From contig PABD01000143.1 of assembly GCA_002702685.1 (NCBI GenBank), positions 1 through 37,443 of the forward strand: a stretch of DNA of 37,443 nucleotides, given 5' to 3'. Below the pieces are notes generated by a model. It was not told the origin of the DNA, did not search any database, and saw nothing but the letters and a program-made list of their open reading frames with translations. How positions within the stretch are numbered: the stretch's first letter is position 1; every line of letters begins with the position of its first letter. Both the position numbers and the translations under genes were made by a program. This document shows, one piece after another, positions 37-32,612 of the stretch. This DNA is from Planctomyces sp. (GTDB taxonomy: Bacteria; Planctomycetota; Planctomycetia; Planctomycetales; Planctomycetaceae).

Positions 37-1686
37 TTATTCACTCGGGACTGCTGGTGGTTTCGGACTGGTAATCTTTATCGGCAAGCCGGTCGAGCGT
101 TCGATGAACGTCGTCACCGAGACCGTATAGTCGTAGGAATCCTGGTACAGAAAATAGGCGTGCTCGAATTCTTCTGTTCGACTATCCGCGTGCCGTTCGA
201 TTTCGAGATTGGTTAATGCGAAGTCGTAGAACGCGACATCGTCCAGGATCCCATGGAAGGGCTCATCCGCGCCTTCGCCCGGTGGGGCGATGTTGCCAAT
301 GACGACCTCTCCCGGGCCTCCTGTAAGCGGGCGGGTCCCCGGCGGGTACTGATGACAGGCGACCTGTTTGCCATCGATGTAAATCTCTTTAAGCCCCGAC
401 GACGTTCGATAAGTAGCGGCCACATGATGGGTTTCGCCATTCTTGAGTTCGTCCAGCGTGATCGGCGCGGCTTCTCCTTCCAGCGGAACCTCCAGTTCCT
501 GGTATCCCTCGCCAATCAGATAGAGGCCGAACGCGAGCACTGGTCCCGGCTTTCGCTTGGGGAATGAATAATCGTTGACGGCGGGATCATCATTCTGAAA
601 CGACAGTAAGAATCGCAATTCGCCGTCCCCTTCCTTGCGAATGATTTCGTCGTAGTCGGGTTCGTCTCCGGTGGTGTAGCCTTTACCCGACCAGTAGGGG
701 CGCATGTATGCTTCCAACGTGATGCCGTCGCTGACGGCGAACGTTCCTGTGCCGAGTGCATCGCCCCCTCCACTGCCGACCGCGATCGCGGCATCCGGCG
801 TGTTGTCGAATTCGATAGCGCCGCCTGTGGGAACGAGCCCACCTACTCTTCGAGTCCCTTTTCCGAGAACTCCATCCGCGTTTCCGTATTTGTCCTGCAC
901 ACGCGAGCCCTTGCCGGAGAATTGCCAGAAATGTCGCGGTCTGGCCCGGGAGGGATTAACGTTTACTGATCCCGTGAGAATTCGCAGTTCCAGCATTTCG
1001 GGGTCAGCCGTTGTCCGGATTTCAAAGTTGCCATGTCCTTTGAACTCAATCTCATCGTAGGTGATGTAGATTTCGTTCCTGGATTTTGCGCTTACGCTCA
1101 TGTCACCTTCAACAACGGCGAGTTGGTCGTCCATCTCAATTTCGATGGTCCCCGGCCCGTTCAGCGTGACTAACGTTCCGTTGCCCATTTTCAATTGCAA
1201 TTCTCCCGTCGGCAATTCGTACTTGCCGAACCGCAATTCCGCCCCCGGTTTCCAATTGGAAAAAACCGAACGCGGTTCCATTGATTCCACAACCGCCAGG
1301 ACATCGCCTTGCCCTTGGAATAAGTCGGAGAAGAACCAGCTGAGTACAGGGATGGCGACGATCACCAACAATAGAAGAGCCAGCAGCCCTTTCCGCATCG
1401 GTTTCTGTGGCCCCGTCAACCTGCGCTGACCTGGGTGTGTTGGCGAGGAACCGTCATGGCCGAACTCAACGGTCATCTGTTTGAGTGTGACCGATTTGAC
1501 CGGTGGCAGCGCAGGTACCTGTTCCGCCTGCATGCGCGCGTGGAGATCGATGTATTGCAGGTATTCCCTTTGCCGTTCGGGCGAACCTTCGAGCAGTTCC
1601 GCCAGACGACTTTCCTGTTCGGCCGTCAATTGACCATCGCAGACCAGATCGAGCAGTTCCTGAAACTCATCATCGGTTGAGGCCAT
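37..1686 (-). CDS. FecR-like / LamG (concanavalin A-like) domain membrane protein, partner of the adjacent ECF sigma factor
   Basis: 549-aa ORF. N-terminal anti-sigma-like segment (FQELLDLVCDGQLTAEQESRLAELLEGSPERQREYLQYIDLHARMQ), one TM helix (GLLALLLLVIVAIPVLSWFF), a FecR-like middle (LPTGELQLKMGNGTLVTLNGPGTIEIE) and a C-terminal LamG-like region (HHVAATYRTSSGLKEIYIDGKQV...GILDDVAFYDFALTNLEIERH). Confidence 0.85.
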   Translation of the reverse strand: MASTDDEFQELLDLVCDGQLTAEQESRLAELLEGSPERQREYLQYIDLHARMQAEQVPALPPVKSVTLKQMTVEFGHDGSSPTHPGQRRLTGPQKPMRKGLLALLLLVIVAIPVLSWFFSDLFQGQGDVLAVVESMEPRSVFSNWKPGAELRFGKYELPTGELQLKMGNGTLVTLNGPGTIEIEMDDQLAVVEGDMSVSAKSRNEIYITYDEIEFKGHGNFEIRTTADPEMLELRILTGSVNVNPSRARPRHFWQFSGKGSRVQDKYGNADGVLGKGTRRVGGLVPTGGAIEFDNTPDAAIAVGSGGGDALGTGTFAVSDGITLEAYMRPYWSGKGYTTGDEPDYDEIIRKEGDGELRFLLSFQNDDPAVNDYSFPKRKPGPVLAFGLYLIGEGYQELEVPLEGEAAPITLDELKNGETHHVAATYRTSSGLKEIYIDGKQVACHQYPPGTRPLTGGPGEVVIGNIAPPGEGADEPFHGILDDVAFYDFALTNLEIERHADSRTEEFEHAYFLYQDSYDYTVSVTTFIERSTGLPIKITSPKPPAVPSE

Positions 1687-1689
1687 GAC

Positions 1690-2319
1690 TCATTCCTCTC
1701 CCCGGGCGTCGGTACGTCGATTGACGCATTGAAACAGTAACCGGCGGATCTTCTGGATCGATTTCCGAATGGCATACACCGAACGTGATTCTTTCTTCGC
1801 CAGTTCTTCGGCGGTCAGGCGTGTCGTGTAATAGGTTTTATACAACTGTTGATCCACGGGGCGCATTTTTCCCATACAGACGGAGAATCGTTCCCAACGT
1901 TCTTCAAGCTCCGGTTGCAGCTCTTCCTGCTGAGTGGCGAGTTCCTCGAGCAACTTCGGTTCGAAGAGGACGACGGTATCGCGATGCTGCTGATGTCGAT
2001 AGTCGCGTACGCGATTGAACGCCACCGCCCGCGCCCAATGATAGAAACTCGAGCCGGGTTCAAATTGTCCGAATTCCTTCCACAGGTAGAGCGCCGTTTC
2101 CTGCAAGATTTCCTCGGCGGCATCGTGACGCGGCACCAGGGCGAAAATGAATGCGTACAGCGACCCTCGCGACTCTTCCATCAACTGTGTAAACCGGGAA
2201 ACCCGCAGTTGATCAGCAGGGTCGTGTTCCGAATGAGGCAAGAGAGATGAAGATGGGCCGGGATCGGTCACGGCGAGGAGCGTACTCTTAACGAGAATCA
2301 GGGAGAATGTACCTGTCAT
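1690..2319 (-). CDS. ECF-type RNA polymerase sigma factor (planctomycete/verrucomicrobial family)
   Basis: 209 aa with sigma-70 region 2 (FTQLMEESRGSLYAFIFALVPRHDAAEEILQETALYLWKEFGQFEPGSSFYHWARAVAFNRVRDYRHQ) and a region 4-like C-terminus. It lies 3 nt upstream of the FecR/LamG gene. Confidence 0.88.
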   Translation of the reverse strand: MTGTFSLILVKSTLLAVTDPGPSSSLLPHSEHDPADQLRVSRFTQLMEESRGSLYAFIFALVPRHDAAEEILQETALYLWKEFGQFEPGSSFYHWARAVAFNRVRDYRHQQHRDTVVLFEPKLLEELATQQEELQPELEERWERFSVCMGKMRPVDQQLYKTYYTTRLTAEELAKKESRSVYAIRKSIQKIRRLLFQCVNRRTDARGEE

Positions 2320-2523
2320 CGTAACCCAAAACCCCCGCGGCGAAACAGGTTGGAAAGCGGGAATTACGCTTTATGGCATAGCTGGAACACAAAACCTGGA
2401 ATATCATTCAAAAAGTTGAATTTTAGGGGTATCAACATCGCCGGGAAGATACCTTAAGTAGTGCGGAAGTGCGTCTTTCGCATTCCTTTCCAGCCGCGTT
2501 TCTCACGTTTCATTCGATCTGTC

Positions 2524-5500
2524 ATGCGCCTGACTCTTCTCATAAGACTGCTCCCCTGTTTCTGCCTGTCGTACTCTGCACTGGCCGACACTTCGTCGCT
2601 GCGGGCCGCGGAGGCCGATGATTTTTTCCGTGCGCAGATCGCTCCCATTCTGCAGACCAAATGCCTTCGCTGTCATTCCACCGAAAAAGCGAAGGGGGAA
2701 CTCGATCTGTCGAGTGCGGCAGGCTGGCGCAAGGGGGGGACGGGCGGGCCTCTGTTTGATGCCGATGACCCCGCCGCGAGTATGCTGCTCGATTATGTCA
2801 CGGGTGACGATCCGTTAATGCCCGAGAGCGGGCCACCGCTGACTCTGGATGAGATCGAACTCGTACGCGCCTGGCTGTCGCAGGGAGCGGCCTGGCCAGA
2901 TGACGTGCAACTGACTCCGCCCGGGGCGGACCTCGACTGGTGGTCGCTCCAACCGCTTGCGGAACCGCAGGTGCCCCAGCTTGATGAAGCAGGATTGAAA
3001 TGGGCACGGACACCGGTCGATCATTTCGTGTACCAGCGACTCCAGGAACAGGGGCTTACACCCAACAGTGAAGCCGATCGCCGTACTTTGTTGCGCCGGT
3101 TGTATTACGATGTGACCGGGCTGCCTCCTTCCTTTGAGGAGGTCGAAGCGTTTGTAAAGGATGCAGATCCACTCGCGTACGAAAAACGCGTCGATCAATT
3201 GCTCGACTCACCTCACTACGGAGAGCGATTCGCGCGGTACTGGATTGACATCGTCCACTGGGGTGAGACACATGGATACGATAAAGACAAACCCCGCCCG
3301 AACGCGTGGCCCTATCGCGACTACCTGATCCGCGCATTCAACAGCGATAAACCGTACGACCGCTTCGTCAAAGAACAACTGGCGGGGGACATTCTCTACC
3401 GGCAGACTCCAGATGGCATTCCGGCTACCGGCTTCATTGCCGCCGGGCCGTGGGACTTTATCGGGCATGCTGAAGTTCCCGAAACCAAAATCGACGGCCA
3501 GGTCGCGCGCAATCTCGATCGCGATGACATGGTGACGACGACGATGAATACGTTCGTCAGCACGACCGTTCAATGCGGACGCTGTCACGACCACAAGTTC
3601 GATCCGGTTTCCATGGAAGATTATTACAGTCTGCAGGCCGTCTTCGCCGCGCTCGACCGGGCGGATCGCGAATACGACGCCGATCCCGAAATCGCCGAAC
3701 AACGCCGTGCGTACTCAGAGGCGATCAGCACGCTCGAACAGCAACTGGCGGCATTGCGGCAAACGGCCATGGAACAAGCCGGGCCGGAATTGAAACAAGT
3801 ACGGGAAAGCCTTGCTGAACTGGAAACAACCTTGCCGACGGCGCAGTCAACCGCCTTTGGTTACCACTCGCAGATCGCCAGTTCTGCCGATCAGGCGAAG
3901 TGGGTGCAGTTGGATCTCGGCCAGGAAGTCGACCTCGCCAGGATCGTGGTGGTCGGAGCGTATGATGACTACAACAACATCGGTGCCGGTTTCGGGTTCC
4001 CGCTTCGGTTCCGCATCGAAGTCGCCGACGATGCCGAGTTCAAAGCGAACATGCGCACGGTTCTGGATCGCACGCAAACGGATCAACCGAATCCGGGTAC
4101 CCGGCCGCAGGTCATATCGCTCGATGAAAGAGCTCGCTATGTTCGCCTCACCGCAACTCGACTGGCGATGCGCTCCAACGACTATATTCTGGCTCTCGGC
4201 GAAATGCAGGTGCAGGACGACACCGGCGCCATTATTCCAGTAAGCGAAGTGACGAGCCTCGACTCGATTGAATCGGGGGAACGCTGGGGACGTCAGAATC
4301 TCACGGATGCCAAATTCTACGGCGCCCCGGAGCAGAGGGAAACGTGGGACAGCTACCTGGCGATGCTCGAGCAGGAAGCGAGTCTCACGGCGTCCCAGAT
4401 TCCAGTCGAAGTACAACAACAGCTTGCGGCGACCGAAGACGCTCTAAATGCCAGGAAAAAAGAGCTCTCCGAATTGCCGCCGAAACAGAAGGTGTACTGC
4501 GGCATGGTTTACACCGGCTCGGGGACGTTTCTCGGCCGGGGTGCAGAGGGTGGAAAACCGCGGGACATCCATGTGCTGGACCGGGGGGATGTCGAGAAGA
4601 AGCTGCAGCTGGTATCGCCGGGGACGATTCCGATTCTGAAAGACAGCGAGGATCCGTTCGATCTCCCCGCGGATCATACGGAGGGAGATCGCCGGGTCGC
4701 GCTCGCCGAGTGGATTGTGCGGAAGGATAATCCACTCACATGGCGTTCGATTGTGAATCGAATCTGGTTGTTTCATTTCGGGCGTGGCATCGTCGACAGC
4801 CCGAATGATTTCGGACGCATGGGACAATTACCGACACACCCGGAACTGCTCGACTGGCTCGCCATTCAGTTTCGCGATAACGGGCAGAGCATCAAGTCAC
4901 TACATCGCCTGATGCTGACAAGCGCCGCGTATCGACAAAGTTCAGCGCATCGTGAAGAGATGGCGGAAATCGATTCCAGCAATCAGTATTACTGGCGGAT
5001 GAACAGGCAGCGTCTTGATGCCGAAGCGGTGCGGGACTCGGTGTTGCTGCTTTCAGGGAATCTGAATCCAGAAATGTATGGTCCCTCTTTTCAGGACTTC
5101 GTGATTCAGAATCCGGAACATTCGCCGCACTATGAATACGATCTTTACGATCCGACCAACCCGGAATCGTTCCGTCGATCGATCTACCGGTTCCTGGTCC
5201 GATCGCAACCGCAGCCGTTCATGGAGACTCTCGACTGCGCCGATCCGTCCGAACGGGTTCCCAAACGGGCGGAGACATTGACCGTGCTGCAGGCATTGGC
5301 GTTATTAAACAATGGATTCATGTTGCACATGTCGGCAACCATGGCCGACACCGTCGCGCAGCAGGCGTCCGAACCAGAGGCACAGGTTCAACTCCTCTTC
5401 CGCAAAGTGCTGCAACGCGATCCGACCGACGACGAACAAAAACTGTTTATGAGTTACCTCGCCGAACACGGGCTGGCCAACTCGGCCCGGTTGATGTTCA

Positions 5501-24265: not shown

Positions 24266-24322
24266 AATGACTCCGATCAGCTCGAGTGTACCGGTGCATG
24301 CTTTTTCCAGGCGGGATAATAC

Positions 24323-24596
24323 TCAAATCTCTTGCTGCGTCGAGGTGGCGACCTCCAGGTCAGCAAAGGTCGCTAACTTGCCCTTCAGCCAGTCGGTGGC
24401 GTCCGGCGCGACACGTTCATGAATCTACACCATGATGAGGAAATGGCGGCTGGCTTTGTAACCGAGTATAACGCCAGCGGCAAGCACGATAAGCCAGATC
24501 GCCGCTCTCCTCGCGGGCCTCGATCTGATCTTTGCTCGCCGTCATGCGGGCGCCGTTCAACCAGACTGAGTTGGCAGGCAGGATGTTCTGTTTCAC
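24323..24596 (-). pseudogene. Frame-broken small membrane protein remnant (hypothetical)
   Basis: Minus-strand segments that read like protein in shifting frames: VKQNILPANSVWLNGARMTASKDQIEAREE (24594 leftward), then +1 frame AAIWLIVLAAGVILGYKASRHFLIMV-TAG(24425-24427)-IHERVAPDATDWLKGKLATFADLEVATSTQQEI-TGA(24323-24325). No intact start-to-stop frame covers them. Confidence 0.3.
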
Positions 24597-24686
24597 GGCG
24601 ATCAGCTCCGGCTGGCGAGTCGGGTGCGGGTATCGGATACCCCTTTTCCACCGTACTCAGGTCGGAGCAACCACGCAAGCGTTGTG

Positions 24687-24836
24687 CTACTTTTTCTTCG
24701 AACTCGATTCGTCGCGCCGGTCCTTGCCTGTGCGGCGCTCGCGCGCGACATGCACTTTGCGCTTGCGCCGGTCCTTGCTGTCGCGTTTTTCGAGAAGATG
24801 TTCGAGTTCCGCCGGGATGTCGTTGCCCTTAGTCAT
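24687..24836 (-). CDS. Small basic protein, 49 aa, overlapping the secretin stop codon
   Basis: MTKGNDIPAELEHLLEKRDSKDRRKRKVHVARERRTGKDRRDESSSKKK*. Preceded by GGAGGTGATTCGCCATG (near-perfect Shine-Dalgarno) and overlaps the secretin end by 8 nt (ATGACTAA). Below the length cutoff of the supplied ORF track. Confidence 0.7.
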   Translation of the reverse strand: MTKGNDIPAELEHLLEKRDSKDRRKRKVHVARERRTGKDRRDESSSKKK

Positions 24837-27297
24837 GGCGAATCACCTCCGTGACCGGTTTCAATTCGAAGTCATGGTACAAGGGTTGTATGTACGTTTC
24901 CTGGAACAACTGATCGGGGCCGATCAACCCGCCAGACGGCTCTTCTCGGTGGGGCCGGTATCGTGACGGTTCCTGGTACGCGACTGGCTGAACAGGCTCG
25001 GTGCTCGTCGGCCCAGTGATGGCTGGTTCCATGATCGTCGGTTCAACCCGAGGCTCTGTCGTGGCGTACTTCGTTTCGTTGGGAACAGGTTGCAATTGCC
25101 ACGATTCCGGACGAATGCTCTCCACCGGCACGTTATTCACGGGCGTGTCATCGTCGCAGATGGGAGGGTACTCAGGATAAAAGACCGGTCCCGAATACGG
25201 TTGCAGACCATATTTCTCCTGAATGCTCGGCACGTAATATTCGATCGGTTTCGGATAGGGTTGCTTCAGATCTTGTGGAATACCTTTGAGCCGCTTCCAG
25301 TCAATGATGCGCGGGTCATAGATTGCGTCCGGCAATTCCGGTTCCCATGGTCGCTCGACCGGTTGCAATTGTCCCTCGAGAAGTGGCGTCATCACCCGTT
25401 CCACCTCAACCTGATGTTCGCAGTATTTGTCGTACGTGTAGGGGAGAATGTGCGGTGTCAGCACAATGATGATCTCGGTCCGACGACGTTCCGCGCGACG
25501 ACGCTGGAAAAATCGCCCGACACCCCACAGGTCCCCGAGAATGGGAATCTTGTTCTGCACATCGTTGTCGACTTCCTTGATCAGTCCACCAATCACCATC
25601 CCTTCGCCGCTGCCGACCATCACCGATGTCTCCACTTCTGTGGTTTCCTCCTCCGGCAGACCGGTAATCAGGTTGATCTGTCCTTCGGAGACTTCCGGTT
25701 TCACGGTCATCATGACGCGGCGATCATCACTGATCCGGGGAACGACGGAGAGTACGACACCGACATCGAGGAACTGCACGTTCTGCAGCGTACTCGTCTC
25801 GGTAGTGGTCGTCACGAGGAAGCCGAGTTGAGCACCGATCTGAATGCGGGCTTCCTGACCGTTGAGGACCAACAGCTTGGGATTCGCCAATGTTTTGGTG
25901 TCAGTCGTGGTCTGCAGCGCCTCGAGCAGGGCGTCGAGGTCGGTACCATCAATTCCAAACAGGAATGCGGGAGACTTGAGCGGACTGGCAAAACCCTGTG
26001 TTTTGAAACTGACTTCCGCCCCGGCAATATCCGCGAGCGCCGTCAGGTTCACACCGTGGGAAAGTTCATCCCGCAGATCGACCTCGAGAATGCGTGCTTC
26101 GATCAAGACTTGTCGCGGTGGAATGTCCGATTGCTGAATATAGGCGGCAATCCGGTCGACGTACTCCGGCAGGTCTTCAACAACGATGGTTTCCTGCGTC
26201 CGTCGATTGTCATCTGCCGAGGTTTCATTCACGAAGGATGAACCGATCGGAGAGAGCAGACCCTGCACCGTCTTGTCGACATCGATGGCGGAGAGAAAGT
26301 TGAGGTTAAAGACCCGTAGAATTTTACCGTGCACCTGGCTGGTGGAATTCTCTCCCCCGGTCAGGGGACTGATGATGATGATGCCGTTCTTGCGAATCCA
26401 GGTGTAGCCGGTGCTGGCCAGGATGGCGTTGAGTGCATCCTCCAGGCTCACGTGACTGAGGGTCACGGATATGCGTGTACTCACCTGTCCGGCCGTGATG
26501 ATGTTGATACCCTGGTTCTCCGCAATCAGGCTGAGTACGGTACCGACCGGGGCATCACGAACGATCAGTGAAATCGTATCGTCTTCATTGGTGATTTTCA
26601 CATTGTCAGATTCCGGCGCTTCCTCGAGTGGCACGCGAGTCGGTTCGAAATCGGTCGGCGGAATGAAGACGGGATCGCCGTTTGGAATCGGTGGATCAGC
26701 AAACTCCGCCGGAGGTTCGGCGGGCGGGACTTCGGTCTGCACATTGAAATTGGCCTGATCGACGTAGGCCTTACGGAGATTCAAATCACCATGGCTGGCA
26801 GGTGGGATGGAGCCGGAGGTCTTGCCCGATTTTTCCAGCATGAAGTCGCGTGATCCGAGCGGGATGGCCTGGGGCTCCGGCGGTCGACGGTAAGAGTTCC
26901 GAACAATCGGGTTCTCCGAAGCGGGCTCTGCGCCGAGTGTTCCTGTCGAAGTACGATTCCACAAATACTCGGGTGTCTCTGTCAATTCCGTACGCGATGA
27001 TGTCTGATCGGTCGACCTGTCGCTGAAGTTATCGTGTCCGTGCCCGAACCGGGTTGGATTGGGCTGGGGTTGTTTGTCACGCGAGAAGAAGCCTTTGACC
27101 TTCTGCCCCAGAGAGAGGTCCTTGGAATCGCCGGTATTCTTCAGCCCCGTCGTGCTGGGATAGCGGGGAGGTTCAGCTGCGTTCAGTTCACCGACCAGCG
27201 CGCAGCAGTTGACCACAAACAGGAACATCATCACCAATGAAGAGGCGATATTCCCGGGCAGGCAGCGTTTCCCGATATGTGTCGGAGACAAAGTCAT
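24829..27297 (-). CDS. Secretin (type II/III secretion or type IV pilus-like outer-membrane channel) with long C-terminal extension
   Basis: 822 aa. STN/secretin N-domain-like ISLIVRDAPVGTVLSLIAENQGINIITAGQVSTRISVTLSHVSLEDALNAILASTGYTWIRKNGIIIIS and secretin core VLIEARILEVDLRDELSHGVNL...VVPRISDDRRVMMTVKPEVSEGQI...GMVIGGLIKEVDNDVQNKIPILGDLWGVGRFFQRRRAERRRTEIIIVLTPHIL. Confidence 0.92.
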   Translation of the reverse strand: MTLSPTHIGKRCLPGNIASSLVMMFLFVVNCCALVGELNAAEPPRYPSTTGLKNTGDSKDLSLGQKVKGFFSRDKQPQPNPTRFGHGHDNFSDRSTDQTSSRTELTETPEYLWNRTSTGTLGAEPASENPIVRNSYRRPPEPQAIPLGSRDFMLEKSGKTSGSIPPASHGDLNLRKAYVDQANFNVQTEVPPAEPPAEFADPPIPNGDPVFIPPTDFEPTRVPLEEAPESDNVKITNEDDTISLIVRDAPVGTVLSLIAENQGINIITAGQVSTRISVTLSHVSLEDALNAILASTGYTWIRKNGIIIISPLTGGENSTSQVHGKILRVFNLNFLSAIDVDKTVQGLLSPIGSSFVNETSADDNRRTQETIVVEDLPEYVDRIAAYIQQSDIPPRQVLIEARILEVDLRDELSHGVNLTALADIAGAEVSFKTQGFASPLKSPAFLFGIDGTDLDALLEALQTTTDTKTLANPKLLVLNGQEARIQIGAQLGFLVTTTTETSTLQNVQFLDVGVVLSVVPRISDDRRVMMTVKPEVSEGQINLITGLPEEETTEVETSVMVGSGEGMVIGGLIKEVDNDVQNKIPILGDLWGVGRFFQRRRAERRRTEIIIVLTPHILPYTYDKYCEHQVEVERVMTPLLEGQLQPVERPWEPELPDAIYDPRIIDWKRLKGIPQDLKQPYPKPIEYYVPSIQEKYGLQPYSGPVFYPEYPPICDDDTPVNNVPVESIRPESWQLQPVPNETKYATTEPRVEPTIMEPAITGPTSTEPVQPVAYQEPSRYRPHREEPSGGLIGPDQLFQETYIQPLYHDFELKPVTEVIRHD

Positions 27298-27562
27298 AAC
27301 TGAACAGTCGTGCGTAGAGCATCTTGAGTTGGAAGTGCACTCCTATTCGGTATCGGTTGCAGATTGTCTGAATAATTGGAATTCTCCCTCCAAACCGCAG
27401 AATCGGAACAGTTTGGACTAGCGTTCCGGGAAAATATTCGTGACCGCACGGGATCATTTAAAGTTCAACTCCCGCCCCTCGTGCAAACGACGATTGTGGC
27501 CCATTGTTTCGCCGAGCCGAAAAGAATTCCGCGCGCTATCGAAATTCTTGATGCGGTCGAGG

Positions 27563-28666
27563 TCACGTCAGAATGATGTCCGCGACCTGCCGCGCGGCGT
27601 CCGGGCGGGCGAGTTGGAGCATGGCCTGGCTCATAGTGGTAAGCCGTTCCGGGTCACGGAGGAGTTGCCGTAACTGTTCGCCGAGCGTGTTCTGGTTGCG
27701 GGCGACATCGAGTCCGTCGGTGAAATTGAGCCTTCGATCACACATCAGGATGGCCCCACCCGCGTCCGCGTAATAGCGGGCGTTGGCCGTCTGGTGATCG
27801 TAGATGGCACCCGGGTACGGATACAGAATGGCGGAACAACCGACGCAGGCGAGTTCCGCCAGGGTTGTCGCTCCGGCGCGGCAGATCGCCAGCGTGGCGT
27901 TCGCATAGACTTCATCCATCGCATCGAAGAATGGCGCCGTCCGCACCTCCAAGTCCGCCTTCTCATAGAGTGTCGCTATTCGATCGATTTCTTCCGGCCC
28001 CGTCTGGTGGACGATTTCCCATTCTTTCAGTTCCTCGCCCAACCAACTCAATGCGGCGACGACCTCCACGTTCATGCTCCGCGCGCCTTGGCTGCCCCCC
28101 AGCACAATCAGCTTCGGACGGCCGTCATTTGCACCACGAACTTCACTGATATTGCGAATGAATTTTCGCACGGGGTTGCCGGTGATTGTTCGCTGCGGGC
28201 GACGGGAAATTCTTCCGCCCGTATCCGGAAAGGAGAGGCACAGTTCGTCGGCCAGGTAACTCCCAAACCGGGTTGCCCGTCCGGCGATGCTGTTCTGTTC
28301 GAGCAACACAACACGTCGGCGTTGTCGCCTCGCCGCCAGGATGAAGGGGAGACTGGCAAAACCTCCGAGACCGACGACGACATCGGCATTGAAGCGGGAC
28401 AGCTCAACCGAGGCGAGTTGACAGGACTTACGAAATCGGGAAAGAAACCGGAGCGGGTGGCGTTTGAAGCTCGTCGAGGACTCCATCTCCAGGGGGAGAT
28501 GTCGATAGCCGCTGCGATCGATAATCTCTTTTTCAATGGGGCGATTGGAACCGGCGAAAACGAGTTCGATTTCTCTGTCCCGCGCTTCCAGTTCCTCGGC
28601 CACCGCGATTCCGGGAAAGAGGTGCCCCCCTGTTCCGCCACCGGCTAAGAGGACGCGCAAGCCCAT
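27563..28666 (-). CDS. murG: UDP-N-acetylglucosamine--N-acetylmuramyl-(pentapeptide) pyrophosphoryl-undecaprenol GlcNAc transferase
   Basis: 367 aa. RVLLAGGGTGGHLFPGIAVAEEL, VVGLGGFASLPFILAARRQRRRVVLLEQNSIAGRATR, VLGGSQGARSMN, CRAGATTLAELACVGCSAILYPYPGAIYDHQTANARYYADAGGAI. Confidence 0.96.
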   Translation of the reverse strand: MGLRVLLAGGGTGGHLFPGIAVAEELEARDREIELVFAGSNRPIEKEIIDRSGYRHLPLEMESSTSFKRHPLRFLSRFRKSCQLASVELSRFNADVVVGLGGFASLPFILAARRQRRRVVLLEQNSIAGRATRFGSYLADELCLSFPDTGGRISRRPQRTITGNPVRKFIRNISEVRGANDGRPKLIVLGGSQGARSMNVEVVAALSWLGEELKEWEIVHQTGPEEIDRIATLYEKADLEVRTAPFFDAMDEVYANATLAICRAGATTLAELACVGCSAILYPYPGAIYDHQTANARYYADAGGAILMCDRRLNFTDGLDVARNQNTLGEQLRQLLRDPERLTTMSQAMLQLARPDAARQVADIILT

Positions 28667-29844
28667 CAGGCTGCCCCTCGTTCGGGCTTGCTGACGGCAA
28701 CGGGCTTCGATGATTTCTTGTCGGTTGACTCCGTGTCCGCGAGAGAAATCGATTTGTGCTCGGGGCGCGCGAGGTTAACGATGAGACCGAGCGTCATCAG
28801 GCTGACGATCAGGTTCGTCCCGCCGTAACTGAGCAGCGGAAGTGGAATTCCTTTCGGCGGAACAAGCGAAGTGACGACCGCCATATTGATGATGGCCTGC
28901 ATGACCAGCTGACAGAGGAACGTCAAAGCCACAATCTGTTCGAAGCTGCGTGTCTCAAGATGGCGTACAAGTTTAACGCCGACGAAGAACAGGCCGAGCC
29001 AGAGCGCGACAACCGTCAGTGTTCCCATCAAACCGAGTTCTTCCCCAATGACGGCAAAGACGAAGTCGGTATTCGCTTCGGGAAGAAAACTCAGCTTCTG
29101 CCACCCTTTGCCAAGTCCCGTACCCCAGGTACCGCCGGAGCCGAGCGAGATGAGTGACTGTTTCAACTGATACGGCGCCGCCTCGAAGTTATTCCACGAT
29201 TCGACGAACCCGGTGATTCGCTGGAGCTGGTACGGTTTCAGAATAAACAGATACCCGACAGCGGGAACGACGAGCGATCCGCTCACGATAAAGTACTTGA
29301 GTGGCCAACCGCCCGCGAACAACAGGATCGCGCAGCCGAGCAGCAGGAACAGACTCGTTCCCAGGTCAGGCTCGACGACGACAAGTGGTACAAGCAAAAG
29401 CGGTGGAAGCATCAGCGGGACGGTACCCCGTATCCAGTGGTTCAACCGGTCTCGTCGACGGCAGAGCATGCGAGCCATCAATAATGGGAGCGCGATCTTC
29501 GCGAGGTCAGACGGTTGAAACCGCAGCGGCCCGAGTTGTAGCCAGCGCTGGGCACCGTTGACTGTTTTTCCCAGCCCCGGCGCAAGCACCATCGCCAGGA
29601 GCAGTAGCGTAAACACAAAGATGGCGGGGGCGAGTTGATACCAGATGCGCGGGGGGATGAGGTAGCAGACATACGCGAGGCTGACGCCGATCGCCAATCG
29701 CACCAGATGACGCGAAAGATAGATCTGTTCGAATTCGGTCGGCCACGATGTGATGCTGGCGCTGTAGACCATGACGATGCCGAAGCAGACAAGCGCGCCG
29801 GCCAGTGAGAGAAATAAACCGCGATCTCGTTCGTAGTTCGACAT
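28666..29844 (-). CDS. ftsW: Peptidoglycan polymerase FtsW (SEDS family)
   Basis: 392 aa polytopic. VMVYSASI, PPRIWYQLAPAIFVFTLLLLAMVLAPGLGKTVNGAQRWLQLGPLRFQPSDLAKIALPLLMARML, LPEANTDFVFAVIGEELGLMGTL, PKGIPLPLLSYGGTNLIVSLMTLGLIVNL. Stop overlaps the murG start (TGATG). Confidence 0.95.
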   Translation of the reverse strand: MSNYERDRGLFLSLAGALVCFGIVMVYSASITSWPTEFEQIYLSRHLVRLAIGVSLAYVCYLIPPRIWYQLAPAIFVFTLLLLAMVLAPGLGKTVNGAQRWLQLGPLRFQPSDLAKIALPLLMARMLCRRRDRLNHWIRGTVPLMLPPLLLVPLVVVEPDLGTSLFLLLGCAILLFAGGWPLKYFIVSGSLVVPAVGYLFILKPYQLQRITGFVESWNNFEAAPYQLKQSLISLGSGGTWGTGLGKGWQKLSFLPEANTDFVFAVIGEELGLMGTLTVVALWLGLFFVGVKLVRHLETRSFEQIVALTFLCQLVMQAIINMAVVTSLVPPKGIPLPLLSYGGTNLIVSLMTLGLIVNLARPEHKSISLADTESTDKKSSKPVAVSKPERGAA

Positions 29845-29905
29845 CGTTCGAAACGTTTATGAAGCAGATGCGGGCGGAGGAGAAAAGCGGCAGCCGTTTT
29901 GAACC

Positions 29906-29940
29906 ACCAGGGCGTCGAATAAAGCGTCATTTACCCTGGT
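29906..29940 (-). promoter_or_regulatory. Stem-loop in the ftsW leader
   Basis: ACCAGGG (29906-29912) pairs with CCCTGGT (29934-29940), 21-nt loop, between the mraY-end hairpin and the ftsW start. Confidence 0.35.
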
Positions 29941-29945
29941 CTATA

Positions 29946-29992
29946 AAAGGGGAGAAGCCGATCCGATTGAGGTTATCAACCGAATCGGCTTC
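29946..29992 (-). terminator. Probable rho-independent terminator after mraY
   Basis: GAAGCCGAT (29954-29962) pairs with ATCGGCTTC (29984-29992). On the minus strand the stem is followed by TCCCCTTTTATAG. Lies about 50 nt past the mraY stop. Confidence 0.6.
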
Positions 29993-30042
29993 CCAAATCC
30001 CTCTCTCCCTAACGCTGCCTGGTATAAGCCTTCTAAGTTATC

Positions 30043-31146
30043 TTATCTGATTTTCAGGCTGGCGAGAGCGAGGATGGCAAGCAGTGCTGCTGTGATCCAA
30101 AAGCGTGTGACGATTTTTATCTCATGTTGGCCTTTGAATAAATAGTGATTATGCAGTGGAGAGCAGGCAATCAATCTTTTTTTCGAAATTTTATACCAAC
30201 CGACCTGCAGGATCACACTGACTGTTTCCACGACGAAGACACCACCGGCAATCACCAGCAATGCTTCCTGCCGCGAAGTCAACGCGGCCAATCCGATCAG
30301 GCTACCAAGGGATAACGAACCGGTATCTCCCATGAAGACCTGGGCGGGATAACAGTTGAACCAGAGAAAGCCCATCACGGCACCCACCAGGGCTCCCATG
30401 ATGACGGCGAATTCTCCGCATCCCGGTATGAACGGAATACTCAGGTATCCAGCGAGTACTTTATGGCCGGCCAGATAAGTGAGCGCCACAAATGTCGCTC
30501 CGCACATGATCAGGCAACCGCTGGCGAGTCCGTCGAGTCCATCCGTCAGGTTGACTGCGTTCGAACTTCCTACCAGTACCAGTACTCCCCAGGCAATCAG
30601 GCCGACACCGAGTGGTATCGCGAAATTACCGACGGGAGAGAGAAGTGAAGTTCCTCCTTCAATTTCTCTCAGCTCCAGATACAGGAGCGGCAGGGTTATA
30701 GAGGAAATCAGAATTTGAGCCAATAGCTTTTGTCGTGCTTTCAGCCCATTTTTTTTGGAACTCAATTTCGTCCAGTCGTCATACGCGCCGAGCAGTGCAA
30801 ATGCCGTCGCGGAGAAGAGTCCCAGTTGTACAAATCGATTGGTAAGATCGCCCCAGGCAAGGACGGCGATGAGAATCGCACCCACCACAAACAGGCCGCC
30901 CATGGTGGGCGTGTCCTGTTTCGCGGAATGTAATTCATTCAATTTTTCGGAATCACTTTTGATCGGTTCGCGAAACCGGTTCTGCAACCAGCGAATCGCC
31001 AATGGCCCGAGCAATATCGCCATCAGAAACGCCGTGAGACTGGCAAGCGCCGTGCGCGCGGTAAGAAAAACGCGCGAGTCTCCCGTTGAATAAAACTCGA
31101 GTCGTTCGAGCAGTGGTCCGAATTGATCGAGTAACCAGATTAACAT
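30043..31146 (-). CDS. mraY: Phospho-N-acetylmuramoyl-pentapeptide transferase
   Basis: 367 aa. HSAKQDTPTMGGLFVVGAI, LLGAYDDWTKL, NAVNLTDGLDGLASGC, CYPAQVFMGDTGSLSLGSLIG, CSPLHNHYLFKGQHEIKIVTRFWI. Confidence 0.97.
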   Translation of the reverse strand: MLIWLLDQFGPLLERLEFYSTGDSRVFLTARTALASLTAFLMAILLGPLAIRWLQNRFREPIKSDSEKLNELHSAKQDTPTMGGLFVVGAILIAVLAWGDLTNRFVQLGLFSATAFALLGAYDDWTKLSSKKNGLKARQKLLAQILISSITLPLLYLELREIEGGTSLLSPVGNFAIPLGVGLIAWGVLVLVGSSNAVNLTDGLDGLASGCLIMCGATFVALTYLAGHKVLAGYLSIPFIPGCGEFAVIMGALVGAVMGFLWFNCYPAQVFMGDTGSLSLGSLIGLAALTSRQEALLVIAGGVFVVETVSVILQVGWYKISKKRLIACSPLHNHYLFKGQHEIKIVTRFWITAALLAILALASLKIR

Positions 31147-31196
31147 CCAGAGTCCGGAAGAAATCGTTCAGGCGGGAGTAGTTATCGATAGCAGTA

Positions 31197-32612
31197 CTAA
31201 GCAGCGGGACGCCAGAAGTGGAAGCCGTAGTCGTCGCGGTCGTCCGCAAGATGTTGGGCGAGCCACTGCGTGATGCGTTCCATCTGCATTCCGCGCGAGC
31301 CTTTGACGAGGATGGCGTCCCCATGTTCGACAAAACACGAAAGGACAGCGAGCAGCGAATCGAAGTTGGTGCAGACGGCGGTTTGATGAGGCGTCATTCC
31401 ATACTGTTGCGCGCCGGCGATTACCGCGGGGGCGAATTCACCATAGCTGATCAGCATTTCAATGTGACTGTTGGCAACCAGTCCGCCGACCTGATGATGG
31501 AAGAAGATTTCTCCCGGCCCGAGTTCGAGCATATCACCCACCACCAGGATCCGTTTCCCGGCAACCTGCATCAGTTCGAGTGTTTCAATAGCGGCTTTCA
31601 TCGAAGCGGGATTGGCGTTGTAGCTGTCGTCGATCAGGTAGACCTGACCGACCTGTTGCCACTGACAGCGACCCGACATCGGTTGGAAATCGGCGATGCC
31701 ATCCCGTAATTGCGCCAGGGTCAGTCCCAGTTCGCGACCGATCGCAATTCCTGCGAGGGCTGAGCGAACGTGATGTGCGCCCATCGCCGGAAGGAAATAA
31801 TCATCACCATCGACTTCAAACCAGATCTTACCATTTTCGGTCTGGATATTTGTCGCGCGGAGATCGTTGTCCTCATTGAAGCCGATATAAACGACGTTGC
31901 AGCAGGCGACCTCGTGCATGCCGCGCACCTTGGGAGAATCGCCGTTGAGAATCGCAAGTCCCGTTTCCGGCAGCGCTGCGATCAGCTTCTGTTTTTCCGT
32001 AACGATGTTATCGAGTTGCCCGAACGTCAGCAGGTGCGCGGGGGCGACCTCGGTCACAATGCCGATCTCGGGGCGAATCATCGCGAGCAGACTGTTCAGA
32101 TCATTCGTACGCGCGGCGCCGAGTTCCAGCACGGCGAACTCATCGGTCGGTTGTACGTTCAGCAGGCTCAGCGGCACGCCGTATTCGTTGTTGAAATTTC
32201 TGGGAGACCGCGTCCCCTGAAAGCCTGTCCGCAGCGTCGAGTAGACCATCTCCCGCGTCGTTGTCTTGCCGACAGATCCCGTAATGCCGATCACCAGCGT
32301 GTCGAGTTCTTTTCTCCACGCGGTGGCGTATTGAGTCAACGCGAGGTAAGTATCTTCCACGGCGACACAAGGCAGCGGACAGTCTTCGGCGCGATTCCGT
32401 TGGACGACCGCGGCCACGGCTCCTTTTCGGGCGGCGTCCGCGAGGTATTGATGCCCATCGTGGTTCTCGCCACGGAGCGCCCAGAAGAGCGAGCCGGAAG
32501 CAAGAGTGCGCGAATCGATCGAGATCTCCGTGAAGTCCATTTCGAGCGACTCGAAACGATGGGGAGTTCCAGCGGTGGCATTCAGGATGTGTTGCAGTGA
32601 GAAGCGATTCAT
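31197..32612 (-). CDS. murF: UDP-N-acetylmuramoyl-tripeptide--D-alanyl-D-alanine ligase
   Basis: 471 aa. FTEISIDSRTLASGSLFWALRGENHDGHQYLADAARKGAVAAVV, IGITGSVGKTTTREMV, RNFNNEYGVPLSLL, YLIDDSYNANPASMKAAIETL. Confidence 0.95.
   Translation of the reverse strand: MNRFSLQHILNATAGTPHRFESLEMDFTEISIDSRTLASGSLFWALRGENHDGHQYLADAARKGAVAAVVQRNRAEDCPLPCVAVEDTYLALTQYATAWRKELDTLVIGITGSVGKTTTREMVYSTLRTGFQGTRSPRNFNNEYGVPLSLLNVQPTDEFAVLELGAARTNDLNSLLAMIRPEIGIVTEVAPAHLLTFGQLDNIVTEKQKLIAALPETGLAILNGDSPKVRGMHEVACCNVVYIGFNEDNDLRATNIQTENGKIWFEVDGDDYFLPAMGAHHVRSALAGIAIGRELGLTLAQLRDGIADFQPMSGRCQWQQVGQVYLIDDSYNANPASMKAAIETLELMQVAGKRILVVGDMLELGPGEIFFHHQVGGLVANSHIEMLISYGEFAPAVIAGAQQYGMTPHQTAVCTNFDSLLAVLSCFVEHGDAILVKGSRGMQMERITQWLAQHLADDRDDYGFHFWRPAA

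Follow-up and report, generated by a model that had tools for sequence, protein, structure and literature searches.

Genes and features of the locus

The window, i.e. the whole stretch of DNA that was analysed (37,443 nucleotides, contig PABD01000143.1 of the Planctomyces sp. assembly GCA_002702685.1), carries on its minus strand a PilQ/GspD-type secretin gene followed by a 49-codon open reading frame (ORF), the start of which overlaps the secretin stop (table 1). The best NCBIfam model for the secretin is PilQ (TIGR02515), with 189 bits, under the cut-off of 284; as this curated model is not passed, the gene is referred to here as 'PilQ-like' rather than PilQ. On re-reading of the sequence, the frame, peptide and coordinates reported for the small ORF in a preliminary description were recovered exactly, and so was the ATG within the end of the secretin gene, behind the strong Shine–Dalgarno sequence that had been claimed.

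Table 1. Features of the small-protein locus in the window.
Feature	Position	Strand	Remarks
Small-protein gene, 49 codons	24687..24836, stop included	minus	Homologues elsewhere and purifying selection
Product of the small ORF, 49 residues: MTKGNDIPAELEHLLEKRDSKDRRKRKVHVARERRTGKDRRDESSSKKK	24836-24687	minus	
Conserved N-terminal segment DIPAELEHLLEKRDSKDRRKR, consensus LPDELxxLIEKRExxxRR	24759..24821	minus	Alignment A3
C-terminal Arg-Arg motif ERRTGKDRR, family DRRxGxDRR	24714..24740	minus	Alignment A3
Overlap of small-ORF start and secretin stop, ATGACTAA, 8 nt	24829..24836	minus	
Shine–Dalgarno sequence GGAGG	24846..24850	minus	Inside the secretin gene, 9 nt before the small-ORF ATG
Secretin stop TAA	24831-24829	minus	
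PilQ/GspD-type secretin gene, 822 aa	24829..27297	minus	Pfam Secretin 6.4e-40, STN 2.7e-9
murG-like gene	27563..28666	minus	Upstream of the secretin; ends the murF-mraY-ftsW/rodA-murG cluster

The murG-like gene marks the site to which the secretin and the small ORF are relocated, and precedes the secretin in both congeners (G001 and G002) too. In the window (positions 24829-32612), the PilQ-like secretin ends a murF-mraY-ftsW/rodA-murG cluster, away from the other genes of its pilus set (G000:C154), a neighbourhood that recalls Pseudomonas, where pilus machinery is recruited to division sites in a PilQ-dependent manner (PMC5285504). Downstream of the small ORF, no intrinsic terminator was found and the RNA fold is unremarkable (z = -1.2). 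The interval up to a dinB-like gene (24266-24686, about 420 bp) holds no clear gene; in both congeners this place is taken by a convergent gene for some 148-169 aa, which by eye looks SRPBCC-like and of which the window holds no trace.

Coding evidence

ORFs of this size are abundant in the region (115 ORFs of at least 45 aa overlap the 14 kb around the small ORF), so that its size and start alone are no evidence, and it is conservation that raises the small ORF above chance. Indeed, both congeners possess it at the same site, 55% identical to that of the window in global alignment; their overlaps with the secretin stop measure 8 and 14 nt, and GGAGG/AGGAG precedes the start. A non-circular profile, built from 15 members all outside the window's family, places the small-ORF frame at the top of the 953 frames of the window (E = 7.6e-10, against 0.13 for the runner-up) and retrieves the congeners' frames with E = 2.3e-8 and 1.1e-10.

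Synonymous change exceeds non-synonymous change in every informative pair of homologues, with dN/dS of 0.06-0.42 where dS could be estimated and pN/pS of 0.24-0.40 where dS was saturated, the protein-guided alignment pushing all such values slightly downward. Three near-identical copies differ by synonymous changes only. The GC3 of the small ORF (0.74) resembles that of the secretin (0.66), unlike that of the overlapping antisense ORF (0.48). These comparisons demonstrate, at the level of sequence, that the small ORF is a genuine gene for a small protein under selection, and we regard a real pilus-linked protein as close to certain. A chance ORF, or an RNA-level element with no protein product, would agree with the frequency of similar ORFs in the region; the conservation of both amino acids (over seven families) and gene position, together with purifying selection, makes this extremely unlikely, and in effect it is already refuted.

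Distribution of the small-protein family

A search with the secretin core through 398 genomes of the class gave a match at E <= 1e-60 in 53, and the DNA behind 56 secretins, those from earlier searches included, was read. At 26 of these 56 loci, belonging to seven families of one class, an orthologous PilQ-like secretin is followed on the same strand by a homologue of the small protein, so that the synteny proposed for the window extends well beyond its genus. The gaps between the two genes range from -14 to +122 nt, except for 421 (G352) and 518 (G392). Stop overlap with a strong Shine–Dalgarno sequence is peculiar to the window's genus; elsewhere the two genes are mostly +9 to +122 nt apart and the Shine–Dalgarno sequence is weak or absent.

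A profile of the 26 members, run on 348 genomes of the class, 294 of the phylum and seven chosen genomes, added ten copies. Three adjoin a secretin (G163, G054 and G275, the secretin frame being broken in the last), three lie behind PilP (G212, G359 and G394), and the other four (G193, G246, G048 and a second copy in G201) are orphans that do not neighbour pilus genes; pilus linkage therefore holds for 32 of the 36 members found. A regular-expression match in G023 was discarded as false. Scanning GTDB contigs with the secretin yielded one weak relative only, and a search of plasmid records gave no match.

About half of the secretin orthologues have no small ORF nearby, and the secretin tree counts 11 gains or losses of the small ORF versus 18.9 in shuffles, which is consistent with an old gene repeatedly lost or moved. 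Together, these two observations imply that the protein is dispensable or replaceable; the absence counts are upper bounds, since a first-pass search may miss diverged copies, and come from an even but partial genome sampling in which G000 is 66% complete.

Two minor observations concern the added copies. Some of the orphan paralogues (loci L209, L208, L207 and L206) bear a C-terminal NYRDLL/FRDLL acidic tail, which is common to them and to secretin-linked members of genus g53. In G275 (L181, 453-955), secretin matches fall in two separate frames upstream of an intact small ORF; this broken secretin may be a pseudogene or stem from faulty assembly.

No credible match of the family was found in Pfam, NCBIfam or PHROGs; PDB sequences gave nothing usable, and a literature search for the motif letters returned no paper. 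By sequence comparison, then, the small proteins are an undescribed and ancient family.

Setting in the pilus operon

Most members stand in the order STAS-PilB-PilC-X-PilM-PilN-PilO-PilP-PilQ-ORF, the small ORF typically closing the type IV pilus operon at its 3' end. The order PilM-PilN-PilO-PilP-PilQ is that of the type IVa pilMNOPQ operon of Pseudomonas aeruginosa and Thermus, and the upstream position of PilB and PilC and the Pfam PilM_2, PilN and PilO matches are shared too, whereas here an extra small gene comes last and an STAS gene first (joined in G002 by a sensor kinase and a response regulator). The PilQ and PilM models stay below their NCBIfam cut-offs, so that the pilus could be of the T4aP, MSHA-like or T2SS-like type.

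PilM, PilN, PilO, the assembly ATPase, the PilC platform and the secretin are thus encoded together in related genomes, and in the window's genus the PilBC-MNOPQ gene set is divided between two loci. In the complete congener G002, the pilus cluster begins with genes for a prepilin, a response regulator and a sensor kinase, includes Pfam T2SSE with MshEN, T2SSF, PilM_2, PilN and PilO matches, and ends at a PilP-like gene, without a secretin, about 325 kb from the latter. The same secretin-less cluster occurs in G000 and G001, and in all three genomes secretin and small ORF sit together behind murG, apart from the pilus operon. The opposite split is seen in genus g42, where the small ORF lies 48 nt behind PilP (G212 and G359) or beside PilP (G394), the secretins of G212 and G394 being on other contigs.

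Adjacency to PilQ in most members, and the joint displacement of secretin and small ORF in the window's genus, speak for a secretin-specific helper, such as a chaperone, a pilotin-like protein or an assembly factor for PilQ, kept in proportion by coupling. Against this, no signal sequence or lipobox was seen, which would put periplasmic PilQ out of reach unless the protein were exported otherwise, and in G212, G359 and G394 the small ORF follows PilP instead of the secretin; we consider such a helper rather unlikely. The two opposite splits imply that the small ORF accompanies the pilus module, not only one gene, and constitute a natural experiment on the partner that the small protein needs. 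Judged from these gene neighbourhoods, the family is linked to the type IV pilus machinery and not to the secretin alone. The link to the secretin proposed in the preliminary description therefore stands as synteny in seven families, and its partner has to be widened to the whole module.

Sequence plan and predicted structure

Members of the family are 49-84 aa long and share one plan (alignment A3): PxELxxLIEKRExxxRR, a variable linker and DRRxGxDRR. E16, R18 and R23 are invariant; P8, L14 and K17, as well as R35, R40 and R41 in the second motif, occur in at least 90% of members. Net charge varies between -9 and +14 (median -1), and the linkers are often acidic; basicity is thus not a family trait, the conserved features being PxELxxLIEKR and the Arg-Arg motif.

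This bears directly on the binding to nucleic acids or membrane surfaces that had been suggested from the basic composition of the window's peptide. A protein of this kind, serving for example in DNA uptake, would suit the abundance of arginine and the charges of +8 in the window and up to +14 in G344; the charge range of the family withdraws the basis of the suggestion, and Glu16 and PxELxxLI are conserved as much as the arginines, so that we find this function unlikely.

The absence of a hydrophobic core, also noted earlier, extends to the family: none of the 26 members has a hydrophobic stretch (maximum 19-residue Kyte–Doolittle mean 0.21), and no lipoprotein or export signal was seen, the conserved N-terminus MPNxLxLPDEL having no hydrophobic stretch. 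The AlphaFold model of the small protein has a mean pLDDT of 66, with its longest helix at residues 9-15, from which we infer a mostly disordered protein.

The PilB of the pilus gene set has an MshE-type N-terminus, itself a predicted cyclic di-GMP receptor. The small protein might accordingly be a second-messenger sensor in which RRxGxDRR binds a phosphorylated ligand, e.g. cyclic di-GMP, and which signals to PilB. MshEN and cyclic di-GMP-motif matches in this PilB, and an Arg-rich repeated motif that recurs in other proteins of the phylum, are in keeping with such a sensor. However, no PilZ, MshEN or other known receptor domain was matched (Pfam and NCBIfam gave no PilZ or MshEN match in any of the 26 members), and RRxGxDRR lies in a low-confidence stretch of the model; a sensor is likewise unlikely.

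Still less probable is a PilN mimic the N-terminus of which would fill the PilN groove of PilM in competition with PilN. By eye, MTDRLNLPSELNSLIEKRELEERR resembles KDRLNLLPLAFQRNTLRR of PilN, but the hhalign profile comparison with the NLLP segment, i.e. the PilM-binding end of PilN, is out of register and leaves the likeness unsupported (probability 0.8%, E = 0.066).

A putative cytoplasmic accessory of the pilus machine

Since no export signals are present and PilB, PilC, PilM and PilN are encoded alongside, a cytoplasmic accessory or regulator on the PilB/PilM side of the pilus machine is the most economical reading, one to which we give slightly less than an even chance. Having neither signal nor membrane segment, the small protein would act in the cytoplasm; mostly disordered, it would bind through short motifs, namely its one short conserved segment (PxELxxLIEKRExxxRR) and the Arg-Arg motif. 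It would dock onto the machine from the cytoplasmic side, with either the PilB motor or the actin-like PilM as the likeliest target, and serve as an accessory or regulator of pilus assembly. Coupling to the secretin in the window's genus, or a position after PilP/PilQ elsewhere, would let the level of the small protein track that of the machine. While the family and its pilus linkage are established, the binding partner is deduced from context. Among the loci examined, no fusion between the small ORF and a pilus protein, of the kind that would identify the partner, was found, and the four orphan copies, together with the half or so of secretin orthologues without the small ORF, count against a PilB/PilM-side role.

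Several known systems offer parallels. Among PilB cofactors and phage peptides, small cytoplasmic proteins such as PilZ, CpiA, Tip and Aqs1 regulate PilB (PMC11656802), and the protein described here may similarly tune the extension motor from the cytoplasm; it differs in being mostly shorter, with a low-confidence model, in being encoded in the pilus operon itself, and in that no member has a usable match to Pfam, NCBIfam or PDB sequences. A short cytoplasmic PilN peptide is clamped by PilM (PMC5285504), and an FtsN peptide binds FtsA, a relative of PilM (PMC7613929). These cases and ours have in common a short cytoplasmic peptide with Arg residues close to an actin-like protein of the pilus or of division, whereas the small protein has no membrane anchor and no profile similarity to PilN was found.

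More speculatively, and in our view doubtful though possible, the small protein may be an unrecognised cytoplasmic part of a distinct type IV pilus lineage, disordered and built on a pair of short linear motifs, that acts between the motor and the alignment complex as adaptor or brake, predates the families of its class and belongs to a wider DRRxGxDRR system of the phylum.

Type IV pili are among the best-studied bacterial machines, and planctomycete pili have been the subject of few studies. An operon-encoded pilus part absent from every profile library searched is unusual; the family, short enough for gene callers to skip, has been overlooked in annotation, and the small protein is a candidate for a new component or regulator of the type IV pilus machine. 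Three putative pilQ genes have already been deleted in Planctopirus limnophila (PMC11958385), which brings direct testing in a laboratory strain within reach.

Related motif proteins in the phylum

A second uncharacterised family of the phylum combines a repeated DRRxGxDRR with a C-terminal domain like CERDYTPEEIEFMNALDxYKRRSGRMFPTCSEVLEVLxSLGYxK. It occurs at L042 (1354-1908), an example without Pfam or NCBIfam match, and also at L041, L052, L080 and L213. These longer proteins share the Arg-Arg repeat with the small protein, and that of G269 has in addition an N-terminal VIVEQRLKSDRR segment and is a weak match to the A3 profile (E = 1.5e-5); they differ by their extra domain and, in the one case inspected (G269), by not lying beside pilus genes.

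Finally, on the reverse strand of L079 (reverse-complement frame 739-3102), a long open frame holds ERRSGKDRR...DRRKGGDRR within a Pro-rich linker, along with repeats like the PilB N-terminus and a zinc-ribbon-like segment, both seen by eye; this arrangement suggests that the DRR-type motif is a modular linear motif.
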